Of a stretch of 61,471 bases of DNA, positions 21,031 to 38,241 are shown one piece after another. The stretch's first letter is position 1. Each line of letters opens with the position of its first letter. Origin of the DNA: Anaerolineae bacterium (GTDB lineage: Bacteria; Chloroflexota; Anaerolineae; Aggregatilineales; Phototrophicaceae); assembly GCA_021296115.1 (NCBI GenBank), contig JAGWBC010000001.1, forward strand, positions 25,656-87,126. The letters are read 5' to 3'. The notes beneath the pieces were generated by a model that ran no database searches, was not told the origin of the DNA, and worked only from the letters and a program-made list of their open reading frames with translations. A program made the position numbers and the translations under genes.

Positions 21031-22569
21031 TCAAGCGATGCTCACCATGCTGACCAGGTTAGTCGCCAAGGGGTAGAAGATGCCGAAGACCAAGGTGCCC
21101 GCAAGCGCGATATTGATGGCCAAGCGCACGTAGCGCGTCTCCAGCGCAGGAATCAGATCGCCCGCGCTATCACGCAAGTACATATTCACGACCACGCGGA
21201 TGTAGTAGAAGGCGCTCACCACGCTGGTCAGGACGCCGATCACCGCCAGGCCAAACAGCCCCGCTTGCACCGCCGCCGAGAATATCATGAACTTGCCGAC
21301 GAAGCCGGCGGTCAGGGGTACGCCGGTTAGGCTGAGCATGAATATCGTCATGGCCATGGCCATAAGCGGGCGAGACTGCGCCAAGCCGTTGAGGTCGTCG
21401 ATATTGCCGCCGCTGCCGTCTACCTTCTCGATGGCCATAACCACGGCAAAAGCGCCCAGGTTGGTGAACATATAAGCCATCATATAGACCAGCGCGCCTT
21501 GCGTGGCGGCGTCAATGACGTTCGAGGCGCCAGCGGCCGCTACCGCCACCATGATGTAGCCGGCGTGAGCGATGGACGAGTATGCCAGCATGCGTTTGAG
21601 ATTGCGCTGTGAGATGGCGACGAAGTTGCCCAGCACCAACGTGAGTATGGCGATGATGGTGGCGGTCGCCTGCCAGGCCGCCGCTTCGCCATCCGCCAGC
21701 ACCAGGACCGAAAGCCCGGTGATCAGCACACGCAGCAGCGCCGCGAAGCCGCCGATTTTTGCGGTCACGCTCATAAAGGCGGTGACGGGTGTGGGCGCCC
21801 CTTCGTAGACATCAGGCGTCCACATATGGAAAGGCACCACCGCTACTTTGAATCCCAAGCCTACAATCAGCAGCGCCGCGCCAACCAGCAAGTAGAAGGT
21901 GGCGGAGGTCGTCGCGCTGACGATGCCGCCGGCTGCTGCAAAGATCTGCGGGATATTGGTGACGCCGGTGGCGCCGTAAACCAGGGCCGCGCCGAAGACC
22001 AGGAATGCGCTGGAAAAGGCGCCCAGGATGAAGTATTTCATGCCGCTTTCTTCGGATTTGAGCGCCAGCTCGCTGCCGTCGTTCTTGATCGAACGGAAGG
22101 CGGCCAATATATACAGCGGGATGCTCAGCAATTCCAGCGCCACAAAGACGATGATCAAGTCGTTGGCGCCGACCATGAACATGGCGCCCGCCGATGAAAT
22201 CAGCGCCAGAATGTAATACTCGCCGCGATGGATCTCAGCGCGATTGAGGTAGTCCCAGCTCATGAGAATGGCAATAAGGGTCGCGACCAGGATCACTGCG
22301 TTCAGGAAGCCTGTGAAGGCATCGCCGACGAACATGCCATAAAGCGCGACTTGTTCAGCTTCAGCCGGGGAATAAACAAAGATATTCGCCAGGAAGCTGA
22401 AGCCTAATCCCAGGCAAGCCAGAACCGGCGTCCAGTGCTGACGCTCCTCGCCGGCGAACAAATCCGCCAAGACAAGTATCAGAGTCCAGCCCAACAGCAA
22501 GGTAGCGGGCAGCGTGGATGCCAGATTGGATTGCGCGAGGAACTCGGCGATAGTCGGCGACTGAAACAT
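21031..22569 (-). CDS. nuoN: NADH-quinone oxidoreductase subunit N
   Basis: 512 residues, about 14 transmembrane helices, one of the three antiporter-like proton-pumping subunits of complex I. Recognisable segments are KYFILGAFSSAFLVFGAALVYG, VAVVPFHMWTPDVYEGAP (the antiporter signature with the key Lys/His neighbourhood), and ASNVIDAATQG in the later region. It is the last gene of the nuoA-N operon, 8 bases behind nuoM. Length is slightly above the E. coli protein (485). Confidence 0.96.
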   Translation of the reverse strand: MFQSPTIAEFLAQSNLASTLPATLLLGWTLILVLADLFAGEERQHWTPVLACLGLGFSFLANIFVYSPAEAEQVALYGMFVGDAFTGFLNAVILVATLIAILMSWDYLNRAEIHRGEYYILALISSAGAMFMVGANDLIIVFVALELLSIPLYILAAFRSIKNDGSELALKSEESGMKYFILGAFSSAFLVFGAALVYGATGVTNIPQIFAAAGGIVSATTSATFYLLVGAALLIVGLGFKVAVVPFHMWTPDVYEGAPTPVTAFMSVTAKIGGFAALLRVLITGLSVLVLADGEAAAWQATATIIAILTLVLGNFVAISQRNLKRMLAYSSIAHAGYIMVAVAAAGASNVIDAATQGALVYMMAYMFTNLGAFAVVMAIEKVDGSGGNIDDLNGLAQSRPLMAMAMTIFMLSLTGVPLTAGFVGKFMIFSAAVQAGLFGLAVIGVLTSVVSAFYYIRVVVNMYLRDSAGDLIPALETRYVRLAINIALAGTLVFGIFYPLATNLVSMVSIA

Positions 22570-22577
22570 GTTTTCTC

Positions 22578-24185
22578 CTAGCGAACAAACATGGCGACGA
22601 TGTTATCCACGGAAACATCCAGCATGTTAAAAAAGACGATTGGCTGCAGGCCCATCCAGAAGATCATGATGATGATCGGGATGTATGCCGCTTTCTCGTA
22701 CCAGGTCAGCGTGTAGCCGTCTTCGCTCGCCAGCGGATTCATGAGTTCGCCCATGAATACGTGCTGGAACATTTTCAGCAGATAGACCGCCGCCAGGATA
22801 ACGCCCAGAGTAGCGAAAAGCGTGAAGGCGAAGCCCAGGTAGTCGCTGCCCAGCGAGCCCAGCAGAATCGTAAATTCGCCGATGAAGCCGTTGAGGCCGG
22901 GCAAGCCCATGCTGCTCAGCGAGATGACCAGGCTGATCGCGCCGAAAAGCGGCATCACCTTCCAGACGCCGCCAAAGTCCGCCATTTCCTTGGTGTGCCA
23001 GCGCTCGTAGAGCATGCCGACAATCAAGAAGAGGCCGCCGGTGCTGATGCCGTGGTTGACCATTTGCAGGGTCGCGCCTTGCAAGCCTTGCGAATTCAGC
23101 GCGAAGATGCCGACAACGACGAAGCCGAGATGGCTGACGGACGAGTAAGCCACCAGCTTCTTAACGTTATCCTGCGCGTAGCTGACCCAGGCGCCGTATA
23201 TGATGCCGACCACGCCCAGGAAGGCGATAGTTGGCGCCCAGGCTATGGTCGCCTCGGGGAAAAGATTCAGATTAAAGCGAACGATGCCGTAGGTGCCCAT
23301 CTTTAGCAGCACACCGGCCAGAATCACCGAGCCGGCGGTGGGCGCCTGCACGTGGGCGTCGGGCAGCCAGCTATGGAAGGGGAAGATCGGCACTTTGATG
23401 GCAAAGGCGACCAGGAAGCCCAGGAAGAGGAAACTCTCGACCGAATTCAGCAGGAAGCCGGCATCCTCGCCTTCCCCGTCTGGCCCCAGGGCATCCCAAT
23501 AGGTGCCGTCGCCCTCGAAAGTCTGCACCATCTCAATGACGCCGACATCGCCGCCGGCGCTGTAGGTGCTGAAGGTGCCCGAGCGGTTGCCGACGTAGAG
23601 AATCGCTATCAGCATTAGAATGGAGCCGGCCATGGTATAGAGGAAGAACTTTACCGCAGCGTAAATGCGGTCTTCCGAGCCCCAGATTCCGATGAGGAAA
23701 TACATCGGCACCAGCGTGACTTCCCAGAAGACGTAGAAGATGATCAAATCGTGTACGACGAAGACGCCGATCATCGACCACTCAAGCAGCATCAAGAAGA
23801 TGTAATAGAGCTTCTCGCGGCCGCGTTCCTCAAAGATATGGCTGCCGAAAGAACCCAGAATCGCAATCGGCATGATAAAGGTCGTTAAGAGAACCAGCAG
23901 CATACTGATGCCGTCCACGCCGACGAAGTAACTGACATTGATGACCGACTCGCCCAGCGTGACCTCGGCCCAGGTATTGCGCTGCACCATTTGCAGCTCG
24001 GCGGTTCCCGGATCGAAATTGATCCACATGAGTACCGAGGCGACAAAGGTCACGATGCTTGTGGCAAAGGCCACCCACTTCAAGCTGCCGCGGTGCTTTT
24101 CGCCATTCATGAATAACAAGACGGCGAGACCGACTATGGGCAAGAACAGGGTGATGGTAGTAAGCGAGAGTCCAGTTACGTCCAT
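22578..24185 (-). CDS. nuoM: NADH-quinone oxidoreductase subunit M
   Basis: 535 residues, antiporter-like membrane subunit. Diagnostic stretches include EWSMIGVFVVHDLIIFYVFWE (contains the helix-5 Glu), the lysine-bearing KVPIFPFHSWLPDAHVQAP loop, SSVSHLGFVVVGIF and the GLPGLNGFIGEF motif that defines NuoM. An acidic loop near residues 218-245 (EGDGTYWDALGPDGEGEDAG region) is longer than usual and lies between helices 6 and 7, as also seen in nuoL. It starts 15 bases after nuoL. Confidence 0.96.
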   Translation of the reverse strand: MDVTGLSLTTITLFLPIVGLAVLLFMNGEKHRGSLKWVAFATSIVTFVASVLMWINFDPGTAELQMVQRNTWAEVTLGESVINVSYFVGVDGISMLLVLLTTFIMPIAILGSFGSHIFEERGREKLYYIFLMLLEWSMIGVFVVHDLIIFYVFWEVTLVPMYFLIGIWGSEDRIYAAVKFFLYTMAGSILMLIAILYVGNRSGTFSTYSAGGDVGVIEMVQTFEGDGTYWDALGPDGEGEDAGFLLNSVESFLFLGFLVAFAIKVPIFPFHSWLPDAHVQAPTAGSVILAGVLLKMGTYGIVRFNLNLFPEATIAWAPTIAFLGVVGIIYGAWVSYAQDNVKKLVAYSSVSHLGFVVVGIFALNSQGLQGATLQMVNHGISTGGLFLIVGMLYERWHTKEMADFGGVWKVMPLFGAISLVISLSSMGLPGLNGFIGEFTILLGSLGSDYLGFAFTLFATLGVILAAVYLLKMFQHVFMGELMNPLASEDGYTLTWYEKAAYIPIIIMIFWMGLQPIVFFNMLDVSVDNIVAMFVR

Positions 24186-24200
24186 AGGACAGCGTTCTCC

Positions 24201-26669
24201 TTAAGAGCCACTTTGGAGCAGAGTCTGTATGAATGGCAGAAGCATGAGCAGAATGACGGCGACCACGCCGATGAAAAGCACGACAGCGTAGAGGCGCACG
24301 TAGCCGGTCTGTGAGCGGCGCATCCAGTTGGCCGCGCGTTGCACGAATATGCCGACGCCATTGACCGTGCCGTCGACGATACCCAGGTCGATCGGCTTGC
24401 TGAGTATTTCGGCGATGCTGTCGAATCCGCGCTTGATAATGCGATCGTGGAAATAGTCGTGCAGGAAGTCCCAATCGATGCGATCGGCCAGGAAGCCCGC
24501 CAGGCGATTGAAGGGCGCTTCAATGACGGCGGTGTAGGCTTCGTCCCAGTAGAGCCGGGCGTTGGCCAGCTTGAACAGACCGCGCGCCGGCGCTTGTGTT
24601 TCCAGCTGATCGCGTTTGTCGCTGGCCAGGCCTTTGCCTTTATATACGCGATGCGCCACGATGATCGAGGCGATGCCGAGGGCCAGGGCGATGCCGGCGA
24701 TGAGCAGGTTGAAATCGAGCACATGCCCGCGAGAAACGCTGACCAGGCTGTGCTCCAGGAAGTGTTTGAATTCGTAGGGATGATAAATGCCGTCGAAGAT
24801 AGGCGTGGCTTTGGGCACGTTGATCAAGCCGATAATGCAGGTGAAGATGGCCAGGATGATCAGCGGCAGCAGCATGGCGCCATTGGACTCCGGCGCATGC
24901 TCGGCGGCTTCGCTGCGTGGTTTGTCAAAGAAGACCAGCACAACTTGCCGCCACATGTAGAAGGCGGTGAAGGCCGCCGCCGCCAGCAGCACGCCAAAGG
25001 CGATGAAGCCGCTGGTGGTATTGAGCACGAGGCCCTCGTACCAGGCATCAGCCAGAATCTCGTCTTTGGACCAGAAACCGGCGAAGGGGAAGATGCCCGC
25101 CAGACCCAAGGTGCCAATTAGATATGTGATGTAGGTGATAGGCATGCGTTTGCGCAAGCCGCCCATATTGCGCATGTCCTGCGCGTCAAATTCTTCGTCG
25201 TCGCCATGATCGTCGCCGTGGCCGTGCTCATGGACATGATGATGGCCGTGTTCGACGCCGTGAATTACCGAGCCGCTGCCGAGGAAGAGCAGCGCCTTAA
25301 AGACCGCATGCGTGACCAGATGGAACATGGCCGCTACGTAGGCGCCGATGCCAACCGCCGCCACCATAAAACCCAGCTGCGAGATCGTGGAATAAGCCAG
25401 CACGCGTTTGATATCCCACTGACCGAGGGCGATAAAGCCGGCGACGATAGCTGTTCCAGCGCCGACCAGGGTGATGATAAGACCGAGTACATAGCCGGCA
25501 TGGTTGAGCTCCCACAAGAAGACATTGGAGCGCACCATGAGGTAAACACCGGCGGTCACCATGGTCGCGGCGTGAATCAGCGCGCTGACAGGCGTGGGAC
25601 CGGCCATGGCGTCAGGCAGCCAAACAAAGAGCGGAATCTGCGCCGACTTGCCGGTGACGCCGAGCAGCATGAATAGCGCGATCAAGAAGATCACGTCCTC
25701 GAAGTCCATTTGGAAGCCGCCGAAGTCGACCGTTTCGCCTGTGCCGAAGCGCTCTGAAGTCTGGCCGAAGACGCCAAGAAGTTCGGTGTCGAAGCGATGG
25801 TTGTCGCAGTAGAGCGCGCGAATATCATTCGCCAGGGGATTGGGGGCGGCGTGAGTTGCGTCTTCCGCGTGAGCGTCGTCAGCGCGCGCATCAGCCGGGA
25901 CGCACTCAACTTTGGCGCCGTGTTCGTCATCCGCTGCTGCTGCATCAGTCTCTTCGTGATGTTCCAGCAGGCCGTTGTGCTCGCGCCAGTGCACCAGATA
26001 CTTGGCCTCGCTATTGGGCAATTCGCCCGCTTTGTAGAAGTCGAGCGTGCCAAAAGTCCAGAAGATCAAGAACATGGCCATGAGCAGGCCGAAGTCGCCG
26101 ACGCGATTGACGATGAAGGCTTTGCGGGCGGCGTTGCTGTTCTTCCAGCCTTCGGGCGCTTTCTTGTCCCACCAGAAGCCGATCAAGAGGAAGGAACAGA
26201 GGCCGACGCCCTCCCAGCCGACGAAGAGCATCAAGAAATTATTGGCCGTCACCAGGGTCAGCATGAAGGCCAGGAACATGTTGAGGTAGGCGAAGAAACG
26301 CGGATACCATTTGTCGCCGTGCATATAACCGCGGGCGTAGAGATGAATCAGGGAGCCGACGCCGGTGACAACCAGCATCATGGTCACGCTGAGCGAGTCA
26401 ACGCGCATCTGCCAGGAGATTTCCAGGCCGACGGACTCGATCCTCAGCCAGCCGTCAAGGAAGGGCGGATTGACCACCGCGGCGGCGCCGTTTGTGCCGG
26501 TCACGTAGGTCAGCAGAAGCAATGAGATGATGAAGGCGAAGATTGAAGCGAAGCAGCCAATATACCCCGACCACTTCTCCTCCAGGCGCGCGCCGAAGAA
26601 AAAATTGATGATGGCCCCAAGCGCGGGCACAAATATCACCAAGGGTACTAAGAGCGGCAGATTTTCCAT
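24201..26669 (-). CDS. nuoL: NADH-quinone oxidoreductase subunit L, with two unusual loops
   Basis: 822 residues, well over the 613 of E. coli. The core is plain: the N-terminal antiporter helices, GWEGVGLCSFLLIGFWW (about 151-167), PLFVWLPDAMAGPTPVSAL (about 346-364) with ATMVTAGVYL after it, LAGIFPFAGFWSKDEI (about 523-538), and the C-terminal lateral helix. Two insertions stand out. The loop between helices 6 and 7 (about 213-322) is about 110 residues instead of 20-25 and has an acidic, His/Ala-rich stretch at 236-276. A loop at about 471-495 reads GVEHGHHHVHEHGHGDDHGD, a His/Asp-rich segment where other NuoL proteins have only a few residues (HHEQN in E. coli). Such loops may bind metals or protect the surface, but this is inference. 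It lies in the operon between nuoK and nuoM. Confidence 0.95.
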   Translation of the reverse strand: MENLPLLVPLVIFVPALGAIINFFFGARLEEKWSGYIGCFASIFAFIISLLLLTYVTGTNGAAAVVNPPFLDGWLRIESVGLEISWQMRVDSLSVTMMLVVTGVGSLIHLYARGYMHGDKWYPRFFAYLNMFLAFMLTLVTANNFLMLFVGWEGVGLCSFLLIGFWWDKKAPEGWKNSNAARKAFIVNRVGDFGLLMAMFLIFWTFGTLDFYKAGELPNSEAKYLVHWREHNGLLEHHEETDAAAADDEHGAKVECVPADARADDAHAEDATHAAPNPLANDIRALYCDNHRFDTELLGVFGQTSERFGTGETVDFGGFQMDFEDVIFLIALFMLLGVTGKSAQIPLFVWLPDAMAGPTPVSALIHAATMVTAGVYLMVRSNVFLWELNHAGYVLGLIITLVGAGTAIVAGFIALGQWDIKRVLAYSTISQLGFMVAAVGIGAYVAAMFHLVTHAVFKALLFLGSGSVIHGVEHGHHHVHEHGHGDDHGDDEEFDAQDMRNMGGLRKRMPITYITYLIGTLGLAGIFPFAGFWSKDEILADAWYEGLVLNTTSGFIAFGVLLAAAAFTAFYMWRQVVLVFFDKPRSEAAEHAPESNGAMLLPLIILAIFTCIIGLINVPKATPIFDGIYHPYEFKHFLEHSLVSVSRGHVLDFNLLIAGIALALGIASIIVAHRVYKGKGLASDKRDQLETQAPARGLFKLANARLYWDEAYTAVIEAPFNRLAGFLADRIDWDFLHDYFHDRIIKRGFDSIAEILSKPIDLGIVDGTVNGVGIFVQRAANWMRRSQTGYVRLYAVVLFIGVVAVILLMLLPFIQTLLQSGS

Positions 26670-26698
26670 TAGCTAGCGCCTCTTCCGACGGCCATAGA

Positions 26699-27007
26699 CT
26701 AGCCCTGCATTTGCTGCAAATCGTCAATATTGATACTCTGGCGTTCGCGGAATATGTTCACGATCAGCGCCAGGCCGACCGCGACTTCAGCCGCAGCCAC
26801 GGTCATGACAAAAAAGACAAAGACGTGGCCGTTGACCTGGCCCCATTCGCGGGCAAAGGCGACCAGCGCCAGATTGGCTGAGTTCAGCATGAGTTCCACG
26901 GACATAAAGAGTAGTATGGCGTTGCGCCGCATGAGAACGCCCAAGGCGCCCATCAAGAAGAGCACCATGCTGAGTACGATATAAGGCTCGGCGCCGATTG
27001 GGTTCAT
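26699..27007 (-). CDS. nuoK: NADH-quinone oxidoreductase subunit K
   Basis: 102 residues, three membrane helices, the usual size. The conserved glutamates of the proton channel are present: [17 protein letters not shown] contains Glu38, and [17 protein letters not shown] contains Glu73. The subunit contributes to the E-channel between nuoH and the antiporter subunits. Between nuoJ and nuoL in the operon, as normal. Confidence 0.96.
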
Positions 27008-27026
27008 CGTTCACTCACTCCTGCGC

Positions 27027-28415
27027 TTATTCGCCGGCCGGATCGTCAGCGCCGCCGGGCAACTTGGCGCGGTAGTCGCCGCTCAAGACGTTGGAACCGG
27101 TCTGCTGCGAGATCACGCTGACCAGCGGGCGATTCACGCGCCTGCGCCGATTGATGCGCCGCCGTTCGGCTTGCGCCAGGGCATCGGGCCGCGCCAGAAC
27201 GATAACGCCAATCAGCGCCACCAGCAGCAGCATGCCCACCAGCATCACCGGCAGCACGTATTCGATGAACAAGACCTGCCCTACTGCCTCGGGGCTGCCA
27301 AAAGCCGGCGCGCCGATGGCGTTAAAGACGGCCGCGCGGTAACTGGCCCGGCTGCCCGGAATACCCGGCTCGCGCACGAGCACGCGCGTTTCGATCAGCC
27401 CGCGATCGGCTTCGTACTCAGCCAGCGTTCGCAGCACATTCTGATCTGCGTCGACGAAGGCCAGGTTGTACGATCCGGCTTCCAGCTCGAGGCTGATATG
27501 CTGGCCAGCGGGCAAGAGGTCGATGAGGACGCGATGGGGAATCAGCGAGCCGCAGGCGCTGTCGTCGCAGAGTGTGCCGCGCGCGGTATATTGCCCGATG
27601 TCCACCAGCGAGACTTGCTTGTCAGTGACCGCGTTGAAGAGCGTGAGACGCATTTTGCCGACTGCCGGCGCGCTGATGTCGTCTTCGAGTAAAGCGACAT
27701 CAACAAAGCCTTGGTCGTTTTCGTAGATCATGACTGAATGCGCAGAATCCGGCTCTAGCAGACGCGACTCGGAGTAGATGGGCGCGGATTCAAAGTCGCG
27801 GCCGCCTACGCCGACGATGACGGTATAGTCGCCCGCAGCCACTTCAAGATAGTCTTGCGCAGATTCGCGGCTGTATTCGTAAATGACGCCGTCCAAACGC
27901 GTCTCGTCAGTTGCGTCAGCGACCGGATCAAGCAGGACAATGCCGCGCACGGTTTCTTGCAGTGTCATGGCGCGCCCCATGTCCATCACGGTAAAGGTCT
28001 GCGCTTCGCCGCCGGGAATGGCGTTAATCACGCGAATCCGCGCCTGCGCATCGGGCTGCTCCACGGTCTCATCCGACAGCATGTTAGACGCCAGCGGGAA
28101 GGCGAATATCAGCAGCAGCAAGATAGCGACGGCCGTGCCTGCGAAGCCCAGCCAGCGCATGCGCCCGGAGGTATCGGTGGTCGTTTCCGCGCCGAGCAGC
28201 ATGATGACGAAGAGGAAAAGCACCATGATGGCGCCGGTATATACGGTGACCTGCACCATGGCCAGGAAGGGCGCGTCTAGCATCAGATACAGGAAGGCGA
28301 CGCAGCCAAAATTAACGATGAGGAATAAGGCACTATGTACCGCGTTTTGCCGCGTCAGCATCATGCCGGCCGCCAGGACCGCCACAAAACTCACGACCAG
28401 AAACAACCATTCCAT
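27027..28415 (-). CDS. nuoJ: NADH-quinone oxidoreductase subunit J with a large extracytoplasmic insertion
   Basis: 462 residues, more than twice the usual 165-200. Residues 1-110 give four membrane helices and the key VYTGAIMVLFLFVIMLLG segment (about 58-75). The fifth helix is at about 377-408 (EAVGQVLFIEYVLPVMLV onward), the normal end of NuoJ. Between them, residues about 111-373 form a soluble beta-rich region with two parts. The first starts at ARIRVINAIPGG (125-136) and ends near LLEDDISAPAVG (242-253); the second begins MRLTLFNAV (255-263) and ends near residue 345. The INAIPG and FNAV starts, the AAGDYTVIVGVGG and EAGSYNLAFVD strands and HSVMIYENDQG resemble the DUF4397 fold found in secreted proteins. 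The positively charged tail after helix 5 places the insertion outside. A single continuous frame spans it, so it is not a frameshift artefact. Confidence 0.93.
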   Translation of the reverse strand: MEWLFLVVSFVAVLAAGMMLTRQNAVHSALFLIVNFGCVAFLYLMLDAPFLAMVQVTVYTGAIMVLFLFVIMLLGAETTTDTSGRMRWLGFAGTAVAILLLLIFAFPLASNMLSDETVEQPDAQARIRVINAIPGGEAQTFTVMDMGRAMTLQETVRGIVLLDPVADATDETRLDGVIYEYSRESAQDYLEVAAGDYTVIVGVGGRDFESAPIYSESRLLEPDSAHSVMIYENDQGFVDVALLEDDISAPAVGKMRLTLFNAVTDKQVSLVDIGQYTARGTLCDDSACGSLIPHRVLIDLLPAGQHISLELEAGSYNLAFVDADQNVLRTLAEYEADRGLIETRVLVREPGIPGSRASYRAAVFNAIGAPAFGSPEAVGQVLFIEYVLPVMLVGMLLLVALIGVIVLARPDALAQAERRRINRRRRVNRPLVSVISQQTGSNVLSGDYRAKLPGGADDPAGE

Positions 28416-28501
28416 ACGAGCTATTTCCCAAGATAAATGCGTTTGTGCACTTTAGCACAATTGATTTCGCCGTTCAATTTGCAATTGGCCAGTCCGGGCC
28501 C

Positions 28502-28996
28502 TTAGGACGGATCTTCCATGTCGGGAATGGACCGGTCGAATGCGCCCGGCTCGACCTGCTGCGGCGTGGCCGGCGCGCCCTCTTGAGGCGGATCAATCAG
28601 CATGTCCTTGACATAGATGGCATCGCGCCGGTCGGTGAATGACATCTGATGTTCGTGGCCGAGCTGGATGGCTTCGGTTGGGCAAGCGTCTTCGCAATAG
28701 CCGCAGAAGATGCAGCGCAGCATATTAATTTCGTAAGTCTTGGCGTAGCGCTCACCGGGGCTGTAACGCTCCTCATCGGTATTCTCCGCTGCTTCTACCC
28801 AGATGGCATCGGCCGGGCAAGCCGCCGCGCAGAGCGAACAGCCGATGCACTTTTCCAGACCGTCCTCGTAGCGGCGCAGATGATGCCGGCCTTTATAGCG
28901 ATCGTGAAACTTCTGCACCTGTTCCGGGTATTGCACCGTCACAGCGTCGTCCATCAGATGCTTCAATGTGGTGGCAAAGCCTTTAACTACATGCAT
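28502..28996 (-). CDS. nuoI: NADH-quinone oxidoreductase subunit I
   Basis: 164 residues, a ferredoxin-like subunit with two [4Fe-4S] sites: CIGCSLCAAACP and CIFCGYCEDACP, each followed by the downstream Cys-Pro that serves the other cluster. These are clusters N6a and N6b, carrying electrons from nuoG toward nuoB. The start ATG at 28996 gives a short N-terminal amphipathic helix that docks on the membrane arm. Between nuoH and nuoJ as in the standard order; 53 bases separate it from nuoH. Confidence 0.96.
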   Translation of the reverse strand: MHVVKGFATTLKHLMDDAVTVQYPEQVQKFHDRYKGRHHLRRYEDGLEKCIGCSLCAAACPADAIWVEAAENTDEERYSPGERYAKTYEINMLRCIFCGYCEDACPTEAIQLGHEHQMSFTDRRDAIYVKDMLIDPPQEGAPATPQQVEPGAFDRSIPDMEDPS

Positions 28997-29049
28997 CCCG
29001 TGAACCCTCTTGCTTTCATGTCCCTCTTACAGAAATTTCCGCCGCCAAG

Positions 29050-30624
29050 CTAGTCGCCAGCGCGTTTGAGCGCCGTCTCGCCGCTTTCGAGCACGCGGTC
29101 TTCTTCCGGCGTCCGCCCCAAGCTGGCCAAGCCTTCAAGCGCGCGCACCTGGAAGCGGATATGCACCAGCGGGATGGCGATCAACATGCCGACCAGATGC
29201 ACCAGCGCCCAGCCCAAGCCGCGCCGCTCGCCGGTGTAGGCCGGGTCGTCTTCCAGCGGGATGGCTTCTTCGCTGTCTTGATCGCGGCTGACGCGGCGCA
29301 GCGCCCAGGCGCCCAGAACGAGTACCAAGACAAATACGACGCCAGATATGATCGGATAAGCCGCGCCGCCCAGGGAATCACCAACGACTACTGCAACTGC
29401 CGTCCAGGCGACCGCCAGCAGCGCCAAGGGAATCATGACCTTCCAGCCGAACATCATCAGCCGGTCGTAGCGGATGCGCGGCAGCGTGGCGCGAATCCAG
29501 ATCATGCCGCAAAGCATCAGAACGACTTTGAGTATGAATATGACCGGCGCCAATATAGGCAAGCCATCCATTGGCCACAGGTGATAACCGCCGAAGAATA
29601 CCGCGATCGCCACCAGACTTACGGCGATCATGCCCAGGTATTCCGCCATCATGAACAGGGCGAATTTCATGCCGCTGTATTCGGTCATGTAACCTTGCGT
29701 CAATTCTTGCTCGGCTTCGGTCAAGTCGAAGGGCGCGCGGTTAGTCTCCGCCAGCAGCGCCAGAATCAGCACAGCCGCGGCTAGCGGATTCTGAAAGACG
29801 AACCAGTCCCAGATATTGCGCTGAGCATCAATGATATCGCCGATGGCCATGCTGCCGACGATCATCACCGGGATGGCCAGCGTCAAAGCGAAACTGAGCT
29901 CGTAGCTGATCATCTGGGCTGAGGCGCGCAGGGCGCCCAGCATGGCGTATTTGTTATCGCTGGACCAGCCGGCCAGCACAACGCCGTAAGTAGCGATGCT
30001 GGTGATGGCGATGACCCAGAGGACGCCGACGTTGGAGTCGATCAAGCCTTGCGGCACCTGATACCAGACATCGCCCAGCGATGGCGCAAACCAGGGCAGC
30101 ACCAGGTCCGGACCCATCGGGATAACCGCCGCGATCATCAGGATGGGAATCACTTTGATCATGGGCGCCAGGCGAAAGACCCACTTATCGGCGCCGGCCG
30201 GCATCAAGTCTTCCTTGAATACCAGCTTGACGCCATCGGCGGCCGGCTGCAGGAAACCCATCGGTCCGACGCGATTTGGCCCGACGCGGTGCTGCAAGAA
30301 AGCCAGCAGTCGCCGCTCCAGCAGGGTGGCATAAGCGAAGCCTGTCACGATGACAAAGGCGAAACCAGCGGCGAATATGATGGGCCAAAGGGCCGAGCAG
30401 CCGGCATCATCGGCGCATTGCACGACATTATTGACGCGCGCTTCCGGGTTTAGCAGCAGGCCAATCGCGCCCTCGCGGCCGTTGAGATTGCCGGCGTCGT
30501 CGAAACCGATCCAGGCCGCGATCGCGCCGAGATTGGCGATCAGCAGCCCAAGGACCAGGACGAGTCCTATCAGCGCGATTAAGCCTATGCCGATGCCGAT
30601 CTTTAGATTTCGGCTCATACTCAT
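29050..30624 (-). CDS. nuoH: NADH-quinone oxidoreductase subunit H with extra terminal helices
   Basis: 524 residues against about 325 in E. coli. The core from about residue 80 to 430 has the quinone-site features: ERRLLAFLQHRVGPNRVGP (about 103-121), QPAADGVKLVFKED, AETNRAPFDLTEAEQELTQG (the acidic loop 1 of the E-channel) and TEYSGMKFALFMMAEY. An added N-terminal hydrophobic helix (about 10-35) plus a loop with paired cysteines (CADDAGC) comes before it. After the core there are about 95 more residues with one clear helix (about 438-460) and a second hydrophobic segment (about 484-505). These additions are continuous with the normal frame. Placed between nuoG and nuoI. Confidence 0.94.
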   Translation of the reverse strand: MSMSRNLKIGIGIGLIALIGLVLVLGLLIANLGAIAAWIGFDDAGNLNGREGAIGLLLNPEARVNNVVQCADDAGCSALWPIIFAAGFAFVIVTGFAYATLLERRLLAFLQHRVGPNRVGPMGFLQPAADGVKLVFKEDLMPAGADKWVFRLAPMIKVIPILMIAAVIPMGPDLVLPWFAPSLGDVWYQVPQGLIDSNVGVLWVIAITSIATYGVVLAGWSSDNKYAMLGALRASAQMISYELSFALTLAIPVMIVGSMAIGDIIDAQRNIWDWFVFQNPLAAAVLILALLAETNRAPFDLTEAEQELTQGYMTEYSGMKFALFMMAEYLGMIAVSLVAIAVFFGGYHLWPMDGLPILAPVIFILKVVLMLCGMIWIRATLPRIRYDRLMMFGWKVMIPLALLAVAWTAVAVVVGDSLGGAAYPIISGVVFVLVLVLGAWALRRVSRDQDSEEAIPLEDDPAYTGERRGLGWALVHLVGMLIAIPLVHIRFQVRALEGLASLGRTPEEDRVLESGETALKRAGD

Positions 30625-30636
30625 ATTCCTCTTGGT

Positions 30637-33168
30637 TCAGTCGGCAGCGGCGACCGCTTGGGATACGCGGCTGACGGTCCCGGCGGTCATCGTCAGCGGG
30701 ACAGCCGCATCCGTCATGTGTCGCGGCAGAGCCACAGCGCCCGCTGCCATCTCGTCACTAATGCACACTCGCGCGCGCAGGGTTGATTCGCCCGCGGAGA
30801 TTTCGATTACATCATTGTGAATGATTCCCAGCGTTTGCGCGTCGTCCGGATTCATTGTCGCGTATGCGGCCAGGATGCGCGGCTCCATCAGCAGCGACGG
30901 GCGGAAATTGCGCTGGCGATTGTACAAGCGCGTTACCGGCACAATCAACAGTTCCCCGTCCACAGCGGAGATGGCTTCCGGCTCGCTGATAGCGACTGGC
31001 TTGAGTTTCTTGCCGTCCGCGACTGACGGGATCTGGATGCCGAGCCCGCCTTCATTCGAATAGGCGGTGCCGCCGTAGTACTGGTCGCGGCTGCCGACAT
31101 CAGGGAACTGCCGCTTGACCTGCGACAAGGCCTGGTAGCGCATGCCGTCAAAGGCGGGGACATTCTTGCTCAGTTCCAGCATGACAGCGGCGGCGGAAGG
31201 TTTGAGATGGCTCATGCCCATGGCTTGCCGCAAGCTGGCGAAGAGTTTCCAGGCGGGCAGCGCTTGCCCGATGGGCCCCTGCGCAGTATAGAAGCGCTGC
31301 ACGCGCCGCTCGCCGTTGACGTAGCTGCCATCGCGCTCGGCAAAGCTTTGCAGCGGCAGCATGAAATCCGCCAACTCCGAAATGCCGCCGTCAAAGAAAT
31401 TGGCGTAGATGATGGTTTCAACTTCGCTGAGCCAAGCCTGCGCGGTCGGGTCATCATCCAGCAGTTCGGCTTGCGCCACGATTAGGACTTTGGGCGGTTT
31501 AGCGGCGATGTCCAGACTGGCTGCCGGCGAATAGCCTACGTAGTGCAGCCCCATACCATTGGCGCCGGGGATGGGCGATAGCAGGCCGTTGTTGGGCCGG
31601 CCGACATGCCCGGTCTCAATTAGGAAGTTTGCCGCCGCCTGCGCCAGCGCCGCGCTGCCTTCGAGCGTGAGCCCTTCAGCGCCGGCTACGATCACCAGGT
31701 TTTCCGCCTGGCTCAGTCGCGCAGCAATCGCCTTGTGCTTCTTCTCTAGGTCGCGCATGACCGCAACCGCGTCGCCGGCAGCGTAGCGGATGGCATCGCC
31801 CTCGACTACCTTGTCATTGCGCGCGCCTTGCAGGGCGAAGTCTTCCAGGCGCGTATCGCGCGCGTTAGCCACGACCAGATAAGCGCCGCGGTCTTGGGCT
31901 TGCTTCAGGCGCAGCCGCCAGATCGGCACTTCTTCTTCAAGGTCGCTGGCGATCACCAGGATGGCATCGCCCTTGCCCAGCTGGCCCAGATTGGTACCGA
32001 AGCCTACGCCGGCCCGCGCCACAGATTCCGCGCCGCCATGCGTCGGCGGCCAAGCGCCCAGGCGATTGCCCCCGAGCCCTTTCATCAGTCGGCGCAATTC
32101 CCAGAGATCTTCGTTGGACATGCCGCTGCCGGCGATCGCCGCTACATCGCCATCGGCGTTGCGCAGCACTTCGGCGATGTCGGCAATCGCGGCTTCCCAA
32201 GTCGAGTCGCGCAGTTCCGCGCCGCTGCGCATCCGCGGCCTTTGCAGGCGTTCATTGCTGCGCGTGAAGTGATGGCCAAAGCGCGTCTTGTCGCTGATCC
32301 AGATTTCGTTGACTTGCTCGTTTTGCCGCGGCATGACCCGCTTAATCATGGCTTTGCCATCGAAGTCGCGATCGAGCCGCATGCTCAAGCTGATATTCTC
32401 GCCGGCAGCGTCCCAGGGCGAGATGCTGGGCACTTCGTTCAATTCCCAGGGGCGCGCGCCGAAGCGAAAGTCAGCCGTAGTCAAGGCGCCAACCGGGCAG
32501 ATGTCGGTGGTGTTGCCGCTGAAATAGGTATCAAAGCCGGGGTCTGAGTTGGTGATAATTTGCAGACGGCGGCCGCGTTCGTGGAATGCCAGAACATCGT
32601 CGCCGACGATCTCGTCCTGGAAGCGCACACAGCGGGCGCATTGAATGCAGCGTTCGCGGTCCAGGAAGATCAGATCGCCCAGGGGGTAGTGCTTTTCCAG
32701 CAGTTGCTTGTCTTCAAAGTACATACGTGAAGACTGCGGGCCGTGACGCATGGTCAAATTTTGCAGCGGACATTCGCCGCCTTTGTCACAGATGGGGCAG
32801 TCCAGCGGGTGGCTGCTGAGCAGAAATTCCAGGACATCGTTGCGCGCGTCAATAACTTGCTGCGTCTCGGTCTTGATATGCATGCCGTCGCTGACGACCG
32901 TGGTGCAAGCCGTCTGCAGCTTGGGAAAGTAGCGAATCTGCGGACTGCCGTCGTCATTAAGCGCGACTTCGCCGGTGGCTCGGTCTCTGGCGGGCGTGCC
33001 CAGCTCGACCAGGCACATGCGGCACATGCCCACGGGCTCCATCTTGGGGTGATAGCAGAAGACCGGTATGTCATTGCCGGCATGCCATTTGGCGGCGTCA
33101 ACCAGATTTGAGCCGGCGTCTACTTCGTATTCAGTGCCGTCGATGTTGATTTTCACCCTGTCGGACAT
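30637..33168 (-). CDS. nuoG: NADH-quinone oxidoreductase subunit G
   Basis: 843 residues. The N-terminal [2Fe-2S] domain has CYHPKMEPVGMCRMCLVELG. The His-Cys [4Fe-4S] site appears as HPLDCPICDKGGECPLQN, and a ferredoxin pair is formed by RCIQCARCVRFQ and DICPVGALT. The rest is a molybdopterin-oxidoreductase-like domain (residues about 220-840) that in complex I has no cofactor but supports structure. It conducts electrons from nuoF/E clusters to nuoI. Length fits non-proteobacterial NuoG proteins. It follows the TPR gene by 15 bases. Confidence 0.95.
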   Translation of the reverse strand: MSDRVKINIDGTEYEVDAGSNLVDAAKWHAGNDIPVFCYHPKMEPVGMCRMCLVELGTPARDRATGEVALNDDGSPQIRYFPKLQTACTTVVSDGMHIKTETQQVIDARNDVLEFLLSSHPLDCPICDKGGECPLQNLTMRHGPQSSRMYFEDKQLLEKHYPLGDLIFLDRERCIQCARCVRFQDEIVGDDVLAFHERGRRLQIITNSDPGFDTYFSGNTTDICPVGALTTADFRFGARPWELNEVPSISPWDAAGENISLSMRLDRDFDGKAMIKRVMPRQNEQVNEIWISDKTRFGHHFTRSNERLQRPRMRSGAELRDSTWEAAIADIAEVLRNADGDVAAIAGSGMSNEDLWELRRLMKGLGGNRLGAWPPTHGGAESVARAGVGFGTNLGQLGKGDAILVIASDLEEEVPIWRLRLKQAQDRGAYLVVANARDTRLEDFALQGARNDKVVEGDAIRYAAGDAVAVMRDLEKKHKAIAARLSQAENLVIVAGAEGLTLEGSAALAQAAANFLIETGHVGRPNNGLLSPIPGANGMGLHYVGYSPAASLDIAAKPPKVLIVAQAELLDDDPTAQAWLSEVETIIYANFFDGGISELADFMLPLQSFAERDGSYVNGERRVQRFYTAQGPIGQALPAWKLFASLRQAMGMSHLKPSAAAVMLELSKNVPAFDGMRYQALSQVKRQFPDVGSRDQYYGGTAYSNEGGLGIQIPSVADGKKLKPVAISEPEAISAVDGELLIVPVTRLYNRQRNFRPSLLMEPRILAAYATMNPDDAQTLGIIHNDVIEISAGESTLRARVCISDEMAAGAVALPRHMTDAAVPLTMTAGTVSRVSQAVAAAD

Positions 33169-33183
33169 TCGCGCCTCCGCTTG

Positions 33184-33552
33184 TCAACCACGAGCATTTT
33201 GGGACGCCGACTGCTCGTGGCGCTGCACAATTCTCATTCCGTAAACCGCGCGGTCGCACATGATCTGTTCCAGGATGTGCCAGGCTTCGGCATCATCCAG
33301 CTTGTCTCCCAGCGCCAGCGCACGCTTAAAATCTTGTTTGGCACGATCGTATTCGCCCCGCTCCAGCAATAACTCGCCGCGCAGCACAATCTGCGTAATG
33401 TCATCGGGCGCGGCGCTGATCGTCTCATTCAACTCACGCAGACGCCGGTAAAATTCGCGTTCGCGACTCAGCGGCGGCTGATATAGCGCGCCGGTCACAT
33501 CGCGGAACAAGCCGCGCCAATTCACCTCCGTCACTTGCGTCATATCGTCCAT
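33184..33552 (-). CDS. Small TPR-like protein inserted in the complex I operon
   Basis: 122 residues; ATG 33552 shares its A with the nuoF TAA stop (TAATG), a classic coupling arrangement. The next in-frame ATG (33543) would leave almost the same product. Residues about 30-105 are helical: a first helix REREFYRRLRELNETISA, then APDDITQIVLRGELLLERGEYDRAKQ, whose A-P-D, L, G and Y spacing is that of a TPR, and KRALALGDKLDDAEAWHI. No signal peptide or membrane segment. This is not one of the 14 conserved complex I subunits. Its position between nuoF and nuoG suggests an assembly helper or an accessory subunit of the NADH-binding module, as an inference. No named family is recognised. Confidence 0.85.
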   Translation of the reverse strand: MDDMTQVTEVNWRGLFRDVTGALYQPPLSREREFYRRLRELNETISAAPDDITQIVLRGELLLERGEYDRAKQDFKRALALGDKLDDAEAWHILEQIMCDRAVYGMRIVQRHEQSASQNARG

Positions 33553-34802
33553 TAGGCCTGCACGTGCTGCGCAAAATCGTCGGGAAAATGACGAATGGTA
33601 TGAATGATCGGATTGGCGGCGAAATCGCCCAGGGCGCAGAGCGTCGTGCCCGCCATATTCTCGGCGACATCGGCGATGCGTTTGACGTCCTCGGCTGTGC
33701 CGCGTCCGTCCAGAATCCGGTCGATGACTTTGTCCAGCCAGTAAGTGCCCTCGCGGCAAGGCGTGCATTTGCCGCAGCTTTCATGGGCGAAGAACTTGGT
33801 GACTTTTGACGCGACCCAGGTGATATCGACGCTTTCGTCCATGATGATGATTGAAGCCGAGCCGATAATGGTGCCGATCTCGGCCGTGTGTTCGTATGAC
33901 ATCGGCGTGTCGAGTACCTCGTCGGTCAGCGGCACAATGGGCCCCGAGCCGCCCGAGGGCAGCATCGCCTTGAAGGAGCGATCTTGGTGGAGGGGACCGC
34001 CGGCGTGGTCGTAGAGCAATTCGCGGAAGGTCGCGCCCATAGGCAGCTCATAGTTGCCCGGCCTCTTGACGTGGCCGCTGACGCAATAGACTTTGGGGCC
34101 GGCGCTCTGTTCCGTGCCGATGGCTTTGAAGGCCTCGGCGCCTTCGCGCATGATGTAAGGGACGTTGGCCAGTGTTTCGACATTGTTGACGACGGTCGCT
34201 TCTTTATACAGGCCGCCGCCTTTTTGCGCCGGGAAAGGCGGACGCACGCGCGGCTGACCCAGGTAGCCTTCCAGGCTGTTGAGCAAAGCGCTCTCCTCGC
34301 CGCAGATATAAGCGCCGGCGCCCAAGTGCGTGTAAACCTCGCAGTCGTAGCCCGAGCCCAGGATATTCTCGCCGACCATGTTCTTCTCGCGCAGCGCTTC
34401 AATGCAGGCGTCAAGTTGATCGCCGATATCCCAGAACTCGCCGCGCAGGTAAATGTAGACGGCTTTGGCTTGTATGGCGTAGGCGCAAATCAGCGATCCC
34501 TCGATCAATTGGTAGGGGTTCTCTTCCATGATTTCGCGGTCTTTGAAGGTGCCTGTTTCGCTCTCGTCGGCATTGACCGTGACATATTTGACCGGCTCAT
34601 GCTGCGGGATAAAGCTCCACTTGACGCCAGTGGGAAAACCGGCGCCGCCGCGCCCGCGCAGCCCCGAAGTTTTGACCACATCGATGACTTCGGCCGGTGT
34701 CATGGCCAACGCATTTTTCAAGCCGACGAAGCCGTCGTGCTTATCGTAAGTCGCCAGCTCCTTGATATTGGCTATATCGCGACCGCGTAGAAGAATGTGC
34801 AT
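33552..34802 (-). CDS. nuoF: NADH-quinone oxidoreductase subunit F
   Basis: 416 residues, the NADH- and FMN-binding subunit. It shows the glycine-rich loop SGLRGRGGAGFPTGVKW (about 48-64), the ESETGTFKDR flavin contact (about 80-89), the AYICGEESALL stretch, and the [4Fe-4S] N3 site SCGKCTPCREGT with the fourth cysteine in TLCALGDFA. Its stop overlaps the start of the small TPR gene by one base. It follows nuoE by 38 bases. Confidence 0.97.
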   Translation of the reverse strand: MHILLRGRDIANIKELATYDKHDGFVGLKNALAMTPAEVIDVVKTSGLRGRGGAGFPTGVKWSFIPQHEPVKYVTVNADESETGTFKDREIMEENPYQLIEGSLICAYAIQAKAVYIYLRGEFWDIGDQLDACIEALREKNMVGENILGSGYDCEVYTHLGAGAYICGEESALLNSLEGYLGQPRVRPPFPAQKGGGLYKEATVVNNVETLANVPYIMREGAEAFKAIGTEQSAGPKVYCVSGHVKRPGNYELPMGATFRELLYDHAGGPLHQDRSFKAMLPSGGSGPIVPLTDEVLDTPMSYEHTAEIGTIIGSASIIIMDESVDITWVASKVTKFFAHESCGKCTPCREGTYWLDKVIDRILDGRGTAEDVKRIADVAENMAGTTLCALGDFAANPIIHTIRHFPDDFAQHVQA

Positions 34803-34840
34803 AATCGCCTTTGATTCCTTATTCTCGCCAGTCCCAAAGC

Positions 34841-35347
34841 TTACACGCCTGCGCTCACAGGCTCAGCCGCTTCCTGCCGCCATTTCGCCAGCAGCTCGCG
34901 CATTTTATCTTGATCGAGATTCTCGACATAACGGAAGTTGCACTGCAACATAGGCGCTTTGTCGCAGGCTGCCAGGCACATGACGTGCTCAACGGTGAAC
35001 ATGCCGTCGTCGCTCGTGCCGCCTTCCGCCACGCCAAGTTCTTCTTTCAGCCAGGCGTAAAACTCATCCGCGCCCTTAAGCGCGCAAGGCAAATCGGTAC
35101 AAACATGCAGCCAGTATTTGCCCTTGGGCTTCTCCGAGTACATGGTGTAAAAGCCGGCGATGGACTTGACCTGGGTCGGATCCAGGTTCAGGATTTGCGC
35201 CACCTCTTCCACGCCTGCGGGATTGACCCAGCCGTACTCTTCTTGCGCGATGAAGAGCAGCGGCATCACCGCCGAGCGCTTGGTCTCGTATTTGGCGAGG
35301 TGGTGATTGATGCGCTCTTCGTATTTCGGATTACCGATGATCGCCAT
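34841..35347 (-). CDS. nuoE: NADH-quinone oxidoreductase subunit E
   Basis: 168 residues with a thioredoxin-like [2Fe-2S] domain (cluster N1a). The ligands are in CTDLPCALKG (two cysteines, about 84-89) and CLAACDKAPM (two cysteines, about 120-124). The N-terminal helical bundle includes LLFIAQEEYGWVNPAGVEEV. Normal length and placement between nuoD and nuoF. The gap to nuoD (35348-35438, about 90 bases) is the longest between the early genes and holds no evident gene. Confidence 0.96.
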   Translation of the reverse strand: MAIIGNPKYEERINHHLAKYETKRSAVMPLLFIAQEEYGWVNPAGVEEVAQILNLDPTQVKSIAGFYTMYSEKPKGKYWLHVCTDLPCALKGADEFYAWLKEELGVAEGGTSDDGMFTVEHVMCLAACDKAPMLQCNFRYVENLDQDKMRELLAKWRQEAAEPVSAGV

Positions 35348-35438
35348 GCTAATCGTTCCTTCGCAAACGGATTCCCTGCAGCTGCGCGGGAATCCATGCT
35401 TTGATCCTGGTTACTGACCGCTTGTACTCAGCCGGTCT

Positions 35439-36707
35439 CTATCGGTCGCAATCGCCCAAGACAATATCGACGCTGCCGATAATCGCCACCATGTCCGCCA
35501 GCAAATAGCCCTTGGACATCACCGGCAGCGCGCTGATATGGATAAATGACGGCGTCTTAAAATGCACGCGCCGCGGCTTGTTGGCGCCGGTGCCATGGAT
35601 ATAGCAGCCGATTTCGCCGCGCGGGCTTTCGATGGCGTTGTAGATTTCGTCATCGGGCGCGTCATAGCCGTATGTCCAGAGCTTGAAGTGATGAATGACC
35701 GCTTCCATGCTCTGCCCCAGTTCGCTGCGCAAGGGCGGACAATACTTGCGATTTTCGGAACGGTACGGTCCCTTGACGCGTTCGAGGCGCTCGACAGCCT
35801 GGTTTAAGATTTTCATACTTTCGCGGAATTCCTGAATGCGAATCAGATAGCGGTCGTAGACATCGCCGTGCTCGCCCAGCGGCACGTTGAAGTCATAGGT
35901 CTCGTATCCGCTGTAGGGCTGCGCCTTGCGCAAATCCCAGTTGACGCCGCTGCCGCGCAGGGCGGGTCCGGTCAAGCCATACGCCAGGGCGACATCGGGC
36001 TCGATGACGCCGACGCCTTGCGCGCGATCTTTCCAAATCGGGTTTTGCGTCAGCAGCGCTTCGTAGTCGTCGACTTTGGCCGGGAAATCGTTAAGGAATT
36101 GCTTGATGGTAGGCAGGAAATCGTCGGTCACATCGCGCCAGACGCCGCCGGGCCGAATGTAGCTGCTCATCATGCGCTGCCCGGAGAGCATTTCGAACAT
36201 GCCCAGGATGCGCTCGCGCTCACGGAAGGCGTAGAGCAAGACGCTCATGGCGCCCATGTCAATGGCGTGCGTTCCCAGCCAGACCAGATGGCTGGCGCAG
36301 CGGGCCAACTCCAGGCAGACGACGCGGATGACTTGGCCGCGCTCGGGCACGTCCAGGTCCAGCAGCTTTTCGACCGCCGCCGCGTAGGCCATGTTGTTGG
36401 ACATCGGCGACAGATAATCCATGCGGTCGGTCAGCGGCAGGGCTTTCTCGTAACTTTTGTCTTCAAGCGACTTTTCGATGCCGGTGTGCAAGAAACCGAC
36501 ATCGGGCAAGCAGGAGACGATTTGCTCGCCGTCCAGCTCCAGGAGCAGGCGCAAGACACCGTGAGTGCTGGGATGATGCGGGCCCATGTTGAGCAGCATG
36601 GTCTCGCCGGTGATCGCGCGTTCGGAAACCAAGCCGCGCAATTGGTCGAGGTTGCCTTCCCAACGGCGCTGTTCTTCGATCGATTGCGGTGGCGTCGCGA
36701 CTGCCAT
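35439..36707 (-). CDS. nuoD: NADH-quinone oxidoreductase subunit D
   Basis: 422 residues, the 49-kDa-type subunit that with nuoB forms the quinone site. Recognisable parts: MGPHHPSTHGVLRLLLELDG (contains the quinone-site His), DVGFLHTGIEKSLED, DRMDYLSPMSNN, and the terminal VDIVLGDCDR. ATG 36707 lies 14 bases after nuoC. nuoC and nuoD are separate here, unlike the fused form in E. coli. Confidence 0.97.
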   Translation of the reverse strand: MAVATPPQSIEEQRRWEGNLDQLRGLVSERAITGETMLLNMGPHHPSTHGVLRLLLELDGEQIVSCLPDVGFLHTGIEKSLEDKSYEKALPLTDRMDYLSPMSNNMAYAAAVEKLLDLDVPERGQVIRVVCLELARCASHLVWLGTHAIDMGAMSVLLYAFRERERILGMFEMLSGQRMMSSYIRPGGVWRDVTDDFLPTIKQFLNDFPAKVDDYEALLTQNPIWKDRAQGVGVIEPDVALAYGLTGPALRGSGVNWDLRKAQPYSGYETYDFNVPLGEHGDVYDRYLIRIQEFRESMKILNQAVERLERVKGPYRSENRKYCPPLRSELGQSMEAVIHHFKLWTYGYDAPDDEIYNAIESPRGEIGCYIHGTGANKPRRVHFKTPSFIHISALPVMSKGYLLADMVAIIGSVDIVLGDCDR

Positions 36708-36721
36708 ATCGTCCTCGAAAC

Positions 36722-37291
36722 CTAGTCTGTGGCGAAAGGCTTGTGCTTGCGGATTTCCGCTTCGTTAAAGGAAAAGGCAACCGTTTCCTTGCCCAAGGGA
36801 TAATCGCGCCGATGCGGGTGGCCGTGCCAGTCTTCAGGCATGAGCAAGCGCCGTTGGTCGGGATGCCCTTCAAAGACGATGCCCATCATGTCGGCGATCT
36901 CCCGTTCCAGCCAATTGGCGGCGGGCCAGACGACCGTGGCCGTAGGCAGGCGCGGGTCCTCGTCCGCCGCGAAAGCTTTCACGCGCAGGCGGCGATTGTA
37001 TAACATCGACAGGATGTGATAACAGACACCAAAACGCTCCGGTCGATAGTCACTTTCTTCGCCGTCGAAGGCATCGCCATAATCGTTGGGATAGTAATCG
37101 ACGGCGCTGATATCGGAAAGCATGTTAAAGACCAAACCCGACGCGCCGCGCAGGAAATCAAGCACGTCAGCAATGCGCTCGGCATCGACGACAATCGTCA
37201 ACTCGCCGCGGAATTCCTTGACATGCAGCAGCGCGTCGCCAAAGACTTCACGCACCGCGCTCACCGGGTCTTTTGCCGCCGGGATTTCCAT
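36722..37291 (-). CDS. nuoC: NADH-quinone oxidoreductase subunit C
   Basis: 189 residues, the 30-kDa-type subunit of the peripheral arm. The family signature is the ANWLEREIADMMGIVFEGHP block (about 133-152) and HPHRRDYPLGKE. No cofactor is bound; the subunit supports nuoD. Placed between nuoB and nuoD. Confidence 0.96.
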   Translation of the reverse strand: MEIPAAKDPVSAVREVFGDALLHVKEFRGELTIVVDAERIADVLDFLRGASGLVFNMLSDISAVDYYPNDYGDAFDGEESDYRPERFGVCYHILSMLYNRRLRVKAFAADEDPRLPTATVVWPAANWLEREIADMMGIVFEGHPDQRRLLMPEDWHGHPHRRDYPLGKETVAFSFNEAEIRKHKPFATD

Positions 37292-37326
37292 TCTTGTGTC
37301 GCCCTTTTTGTTCTAGTAAACCGGCA

Positions 37327-37809
37327 TCAGGCCCAATCGGCGATGCGTTCGCTTCTGACCTTTTCGTGCAGCGTCAGGATGCCGTGCAAGAGCTGTTCCG
37401 GACGCGGCGGGCAGCCAGCGATATAGACATCAACCGGGATGATCTCGTCAACGCCTTGCACGATGGCGTAATTGTTGTAGACGCCGCCGCAGGAAGCGCA
37501 GTCGCCCATTGAGATGACCCACTTGGGCTCGGCCATCTGATCGTAGAGCTGGCGTACAACCGGCGCCATTTTGCGCGTCAAGCGACCCGATACGATGAGC
37601 AGGTCCGCCTGACGGGGCGTGGCCCTATTCAACTCCATACCAAAGCGCGACAGATCGTAACTTGATGCCTGCGAGCTCATGTATTCGATGGCGCAGCAGG
37701 CCAAGCCGAAGAGCAGCGGCCACATGGCGCCGGTGCGCGCCCAATTGACAGCTTGTTCAACGGTGGTGGTGACAACGCCCATATTCCCGAGCTTGGAACT
37801 TACTCCCAT
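37327..37809 (-). CDS. nuoB: NADH-quinone oxidoreductase subunit B
   Basis: 160 residues from ATG 37809. An upstream in-frame GTG (37830) lies further inside nuoA and is less likely, because AAAGG precedes the ATG at a good distance. The subunit carries cluster N2, the final electron donor to quinone: the adjacent cysteines in LACCAIEYM, then [10 protein letters not shown] and [11 protein letters not shown]. The gene overlaps the end of nuoA by 10 bases, suggesting coupling. Confidence 0.96.
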
Positions 37810-38162
37810 TCCAAACCGCCTTTCTTCCACTCGTAAACGAAGCCGACTACCAAAATCAATGTAAAGACCGCCATCACCGCCAGGCCATAACCGCCCAGAT
37901 CACGCATCGATACGGCCCAGGGCAAGAAGAATATCACCTCAATATCGAATATGATGAAGAGCACCGCCACCAGATAGAACTTGACGGGCAGCCGCCGCGT
38001 GGCCGGTCCGATTGGCTTCATGCCGCTTTCGTAGGGCACGGACTTGCGGTAGGTCGGGCGTTGCGGGCCCATGACGCGCGAGATATTGGCGATGATCATG
38101 GCCAAGACCACGGAAATAACCAGCAAAGCCGTGACAGGACCAAATTCGAGGACGGTCGGCAT
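37800..38162 (-). CDS. nuoA: NADH-quinone oxidoreductase subunit A
   Basis: 120 residues from ATG 38162, the usual length; an upstream start would add an atypical tail. Three membrane helices; the acidic residues of the conserved loop are in [20 protein letters not shown] and [12 protein letters not shown]. First gene of the complex I operon, with a possible promoter 50-80 bases upstream. Confidence 0.95.
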
Positions 38163-38213
38163 AGGCTCTAAACCATTTGTGCTTTTTGGAACAATGCCAG
38201 TCCTAGTGAGCCT

Positions 38214-38241
38214 AGCATAGATTTCAGGCAAAATCAAGCAA
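38214..38241 (-). promoter_or_regulatory. Candidate promoter of the nuo operon
   Basis: Reading leftward, TTGCTT (38241-38236) and TATGCT (38219-38214) are 16 bases apart and the likely start lies about 45 bases before the nuoA ATG. The match is moderate. The gap 38163-38364 between nuoA and the SGNH hydrolase gene has no other clear element. Confidence 0.45.

Follow-up and report, generated by a model that had tools for sequence, protein, structure and literature searches.

A complete complex I operon with a long NuoJ

The window, a 61,471-nucleotide stretch of an Anaerolineae genome, carries on its minus strand a complete complex I operon running from nuoA to nuoN. The sole nuoJ of this operon, flanked by nuoI and nuoK, is a single open reading frame of 462 residues. 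The features of the operon and of the long gene are as follows:

21031..38237, minus strand: complete nuoABCDEF-(TPR)-GHIJKLMN operon
27027..28415, minus strand: nuoJ, 462 aa (normally ~170-200 aa), Oxidored_q3 E 1.1e-36
28080..28415, minus strand: NuoJ helices 1-4, residues 1-112, the ordinary core including Y59-x-GAIMVLF, largely invariant in 31 relatives
27666..28055, minus strand: repeat 1 of the insert, a DUF4397 unit, ~residues 121-250
27315..27665, minus strand: repeat 2 of the insert, a DUF4397 unit, ~residues 251-367
27552..27569, minus strand: C283-x4-C288 cysteine pair, a probable disulfide, invariant in the genus alignment
27189..27293, minus strand: NuoJ helix 5, ~residues 375-409
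27030..27188, minus strand: conserved basic C-terminal tail, RRRxxxRPLxSVIxxQTG, on the cytoplasmic side, with 11 K/R in the window protein

An earlier note on this DNA had named a normal NuoJ elsewhere as a possible sign of a frame error, and the same genome does encode another, ordinary-sized NuoJ of 170 aa. It belongs to a separate nuo cluster on contig C240 (L193:8546-16000) that consists of A, H, J, K, L, M, and N only; no peripheral-arm genes were seen between the genes of this cluster. Given that the second NuoJ sits in another cluster, the long protein is the NuoJ of the window operon and not a broken copy. A further NuoD-like frame of 627 aa lies on contig C119 of the genome. Between nuoF and nuoG of the window operon there is also a 122-aa TPR-like ORF (33184-33552, minus strand), whose TPR matches are weak and fall below the cut-offs; it is found next to the long NuoJ at most loci of f1 too and is possibly a lineage-specific assembly or accessory protein of complex I.

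The extra segment is a tandem pair of DUF4397 units

In a Pfam search, Oxidored_q3 (NuoJ/ND6) matches two stretches of the window protein, best at residues 16-119 (126.1 bits against a curated cut-off of 33.2). Between both stretches, at residues 184-265, lies a match to DUF4397 (PF14344; 38.6 bits, cut-off 30.6, E 1.8e-9). In the window protein itself DUF4397 rises above the cut-off in only one stretch; the two repeats are nevertheless homologous to each other (hhalign 96.9%, E 1.6e-10). We scanned the inserts of the window and of 14 named relatives, and all 15 match DUF4397 at E 0.01 or better, with a best E of 3e-21. These results confirm what the earlier note had read from the letters, a NuoJ that carries, between helices 4 and 5, a soluble segment made of two DUF4397 units. 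The extra segment is ~250 residues long, and its folded part (~121-367) is slightly narrower than the span first proposed (27297-28082, residues 112-373). There is thus strong support for a NuoJ core, its five helices intact, that carries a tandem DUF4397 pair in the outer TM4-TM5 loop.

In the established topology of NuoJ, the TM4-TM5 loop faces outside. The insert is acidic, with a mean of 37 D/E against 14 K/R, and the C-terminal tail is basic. Each of the 31 inserts has two cysteines or none; where there are two, they lie close together, at a position that varies by family. Such strict pairing suggests disulfides, as expected in an oxidising compartment. Taken together, the charge, the order of the helices, and the paired cysteines make an outer-face location well supported, in agreement with the earlier argument from the positive-inside rule, and we infer that the insert lies there.

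The insert is predicted to fold as two Ig-like sandwiches

An AlphaFold2 model of the full NuoJ, built from an alignment of 21 sequences, has five helices (2-20, 25-45, 50-78, 88-113, and 375-427) and a beta-rich insert at 121-367, with a pLDDT of 67 and a pTM of 0.53. Its helices match those of E. coli NuoJ, plant ND6, and Yarrowia ND6. When the insert is predicted alone, the pLDDT is 75 and the pTM 0.75; repeat 2 is predicted well, and repeat 1 has low confidence, with many blocks at a pLDDT of 50-65. The models therefore predict, with moderate confidence, an independently folding domain, one that would form two tandem Ig-like sandwiches.

The best PDB matches to the insert model are all PepT1 or PepT2 (Foldseek E 8e-8). 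With VIA-align, the insert superimposes on the extracellular domain of these mammalian proteins across both domains (Z 15.0, rmsd 2.9, 180 of 189 residues); HGSNAT (Z 12) and AlgF (Z 10.9) rank lower. At the level of sequence, a profile search of the insert against PepT1 gives an E of 0.034, a search of solved structures yields no significant relative, and no relative appears among the viral contigs searched.

The insert was gained once and is retained across five families

We surveyed NuoJ length in 101 relatives, including 34 genomes of the window's genus. In the genus 34/34 genomes carry the long form, as do almost all members of families f1, f3, f4, f7, and f8, with frames of 397-494 residues across these five families, that of the window included. 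Families f2, f5, and f6 have a NuoJ of ~180-240 aa. In a class sample of 298 genomes, 20 of the 21 members of the order align end to end with a model of the long NuoJ; among the genomes listed, none outside the order does so. A phylum sample of 301 genomes shows the same pattern. The long form is thus near-universal in five families, and the remaining sampled genomes of the class and phylum have an ordinary NuoJ. The named carriers of the long form (L074-L087) are MAGs, and the bin names COS, RHO, and APA suggest that they come from sponge samples.

A tree built from the concatenated sequences of nine Nuo subunits, NuoJ left out, sets the long-NuoJ families apart from f2, f5, f6, and the outgroups; the split is fully supported (FastTree 1.0, UFBoot 100). 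This split strongly supports a single gain of the insert, which would have taken place in the ancestor of five families within one Anaerolineae order, probably Aggregatilineales/SBR1031.

Since that gain the insert has diverged to 20-26% identity between families. Comparisons within the genus put the median dN/dS at 0.05 in helices 1-4 and 0.03 in helix 5, against 0.28 in repeat 1 and 0.14 in repeat 2; these values are rough because many sequence pairs are near synonymous saturation. Judged by these ratios, the insert is under purifying selection, much weaker than that on the core helices.

Where did the pair come from? Both the phylum at large and the order contain secreted, free-standing two-domain DUF4397 proteins (L185-L187). 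When we compared the repeats with the domains of three such proteins, repeat 1 scored higher against domain 1 in 31/31 NuoJ sequences and repeat 2 scored higher against domain 2 in 24/31. This pairing, complete for repeat 1 and mostly kept for repeat 2, suggests, though not with finality, that NuoJ probably captured a ready-made secreted pair whole. The earlier note had proposed an internal duplication: its halves are indeed homologous, but the doubling probably did not happen within NuoJ, an origin that we do not favour since repeat 1 always, and repeat 2 mostly, is closest to its own domain of the free-standing pairs.

Other subunits carry additions on the same face

Two further subunits of the window operon have additions on the outer face:

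29050..30624, minus strand: nuoH, 524 aa, with an extra N-terminal helix and an outer-face loop
30397..30417, minus strand: NuoH C70-x5-C76, an outer-face cysteine pair just before TM1
25710..26030, minus strand (approximate): His/Glu-rich low-complexity insert in the outer TM6-TM7 loop of NuoL

The NuoH cysteine pair before TM1 is C-x5-C in the long-NuoJ families from which a NuoH sequence was obtained and C-x3-C in f5 and f6; it is absent from f2 and the outgroups. The His/Glu-rich loop of NuoL spans 50-130 residues in relatives. Families f5 and f6, with their ordinary NuoJ, carry a Baseplate_J-like domain of ~95 residues in the outer TM6-TM7 loop of NuoH (L164, L165, and L166; Pfam E 4e-8 and 1.5e-5). 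In another lineage of the phylum, two genomes encode a NuoJ of 331 aa (L183:1097-2089 and L182:428-1420) whose TM4-TM5 loop also holds an insert; it is ~110 residues long, unrelated to that of the window, and weakly matches Pfam P2. We set aside the long NuoJ frames of other lineages in L178, L179, L180, L181, and L184 (up to 719 aa), as these are upstream frame extensions rather than inserts. NuoJ frames of 280-367 aa also occur in Frankia-group actinobacteria (L111, L112, and L121).

Possible roles of the insert

In the reading that we favour, the tandem pair would be an accessory domain, built covalently into the membrane arm on its outer face and lying above NuoJ/K/A/H. Together with the extended loops of NuoH and NuoL, its folded bulk would most likely steady or shield this face, as a structural or steric cap, and it probably takes no part in electron or proton transfer. 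That sister lineages bear different folds on this face suggests that folded mass on the outside matters more than any one fold or binding chemistry. The extensions of E. coli complex I and the mitochondrial subunit NDUFS5, described below, are precedents for such a cap. The rapid divergence of the insert beside a conserved core argues against a cap, since tight packing should constrain it more, and the low-confidence model of repeat 1 also weighs against it. On balance we give a built-in structural or steric cap about an even chance.

The same rapid divergence would fit a co-evolving or variable partner. In this alternative, the Ig-like pair is a docking platform that binds a separate partner on the outside, such as a bc-type complex, cytochrome c, a wall or S-layer polymer, or a protease, and clusters complex I with it. 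The closest fold, the PepT1/2 pair, likewise sits between two helices; it binds trypsin, and PepT2 transport is unchanged after its deletion (PMC4597091), so a domain of this kind can work for a partner instead of the enzyme that bears it. However, likeness of fold does not establish function, and we found no partner. Alternative complex III is probably not a general partner: its marker ActD is matched in 14/101 relatives and in none of the genus genomes. A bc-type cytochrome b is present in 59/61 genomes, and the genus has a cytochrome b with a C-terminal extension of ~200 residues, which fits docking; one such gene (L191:2306-4099, minus strand) adjoins two c-type cytochromes. We regard a docking platform as possible rather than likely. 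Somewhat more doubtful is a broader version, in which the NuoJ pair, the NuoH disulfide loop, and the NuoL acidic loop would form one outer-face module that docks complex I to a specific partner or the cell envelope, related lineages having evolved an equivalent independently with other folds.

It is also conceivable that the pair does nothing useful: a near-neutral passenger, tolerated in a permissive outer loop, that folds well and is hard to lose. Its dN/dS above that of the helices, its low identity between families, and the unrelated insert taken up by the same loop in another lineage are all in keeping with this idea. Yet its dN/dS is well below 1, the five families have kept it in almost every genome sampled, and there are parallel outer additions on NuoH and NuoL, which together make a passenger unlikely. 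Finally, although the window comes from a draft assembly of 302 contigs, we reject an assembly or frameshift error that fused nuoJ with a neighbouring gene as vanishingly improbable, because the insert is under purifying selection and the frame, uninterrupted as the earlier note had claimed, is open with the same insertion site in 34/34 genus genomes and, in four other families, in almost every genome, from independent assemblies.

Significance and comparison with known systems

Bacterial complex I is seen as having a minimal, conserved set of core subunits, and it is chiefly from mitochondria that accessory protein on its outer face is known. In this case a core respiratory subunit acquired a folded domain on the outside, apparently in a single step, and retained it across five families; NuoJ, a small subunit normally wholly buried in the membrane, presents a new outer surface of complex I. 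The sister lineages with other domains on the same face offer natural experiments on the role of outer-face accessory protein, and DUF4397 can now be linked to a membrane enzyme and to a probable class of fold. The component families are already known. Their combination is new to the literature that we searched, which included few subscription papers and in which, as the earlier note had supposed, we found no description of an outer domain on NuoJ; to judge by their titles and the openings of their abstracts, none of the DUF4397 papers that we found is on NuoJ.

The window protein shares with ordinary NuoJ/ND6 (Oxidored_q3) the five helices, the invariant Y59-x-GAIMVLFxFVxML, and the place between nuoI and nuoK, and differs in ~250 added residues in the TM4-TM5 loop and a longer basic C-terminal tail. 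The insert has the same tandem layout as the free-standing secreted DUF4397 pairs (PF14344), but it lies inside a membrane subunit and has no signal peptide of its own. In mitochondrial complex I, NDUFS5 and NDUFA8 cover the region equivalent to NuoJ/K/A/H. The closest match in build, the extracellular domain of PepT1 and PepT2 (SLC15), is likewise a tandem pair of immunoglobulin-like folds between two helices on the outside (PMC4597091, PMC8565842); the host protein is unrelated and identity is ~13%, and the likeness established here is one of build. Within complex I, E. coli has extensions that overlap the positions of supernumerary subunits (PMC8357420), which are also added protein but sit on the peripheral arm and not in NuoJ. 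NDUFS5 and NDUFA8 are similarly protein added to the complex I core, and NDUFS5 touches and covers ND6 on the outer face of the mitochondrial enzyme (PMC8762328), the same face as the insert; unlike the domain inserted in NuoJ, both are separate, disulfide-bearing helical (CX9C) subunits.
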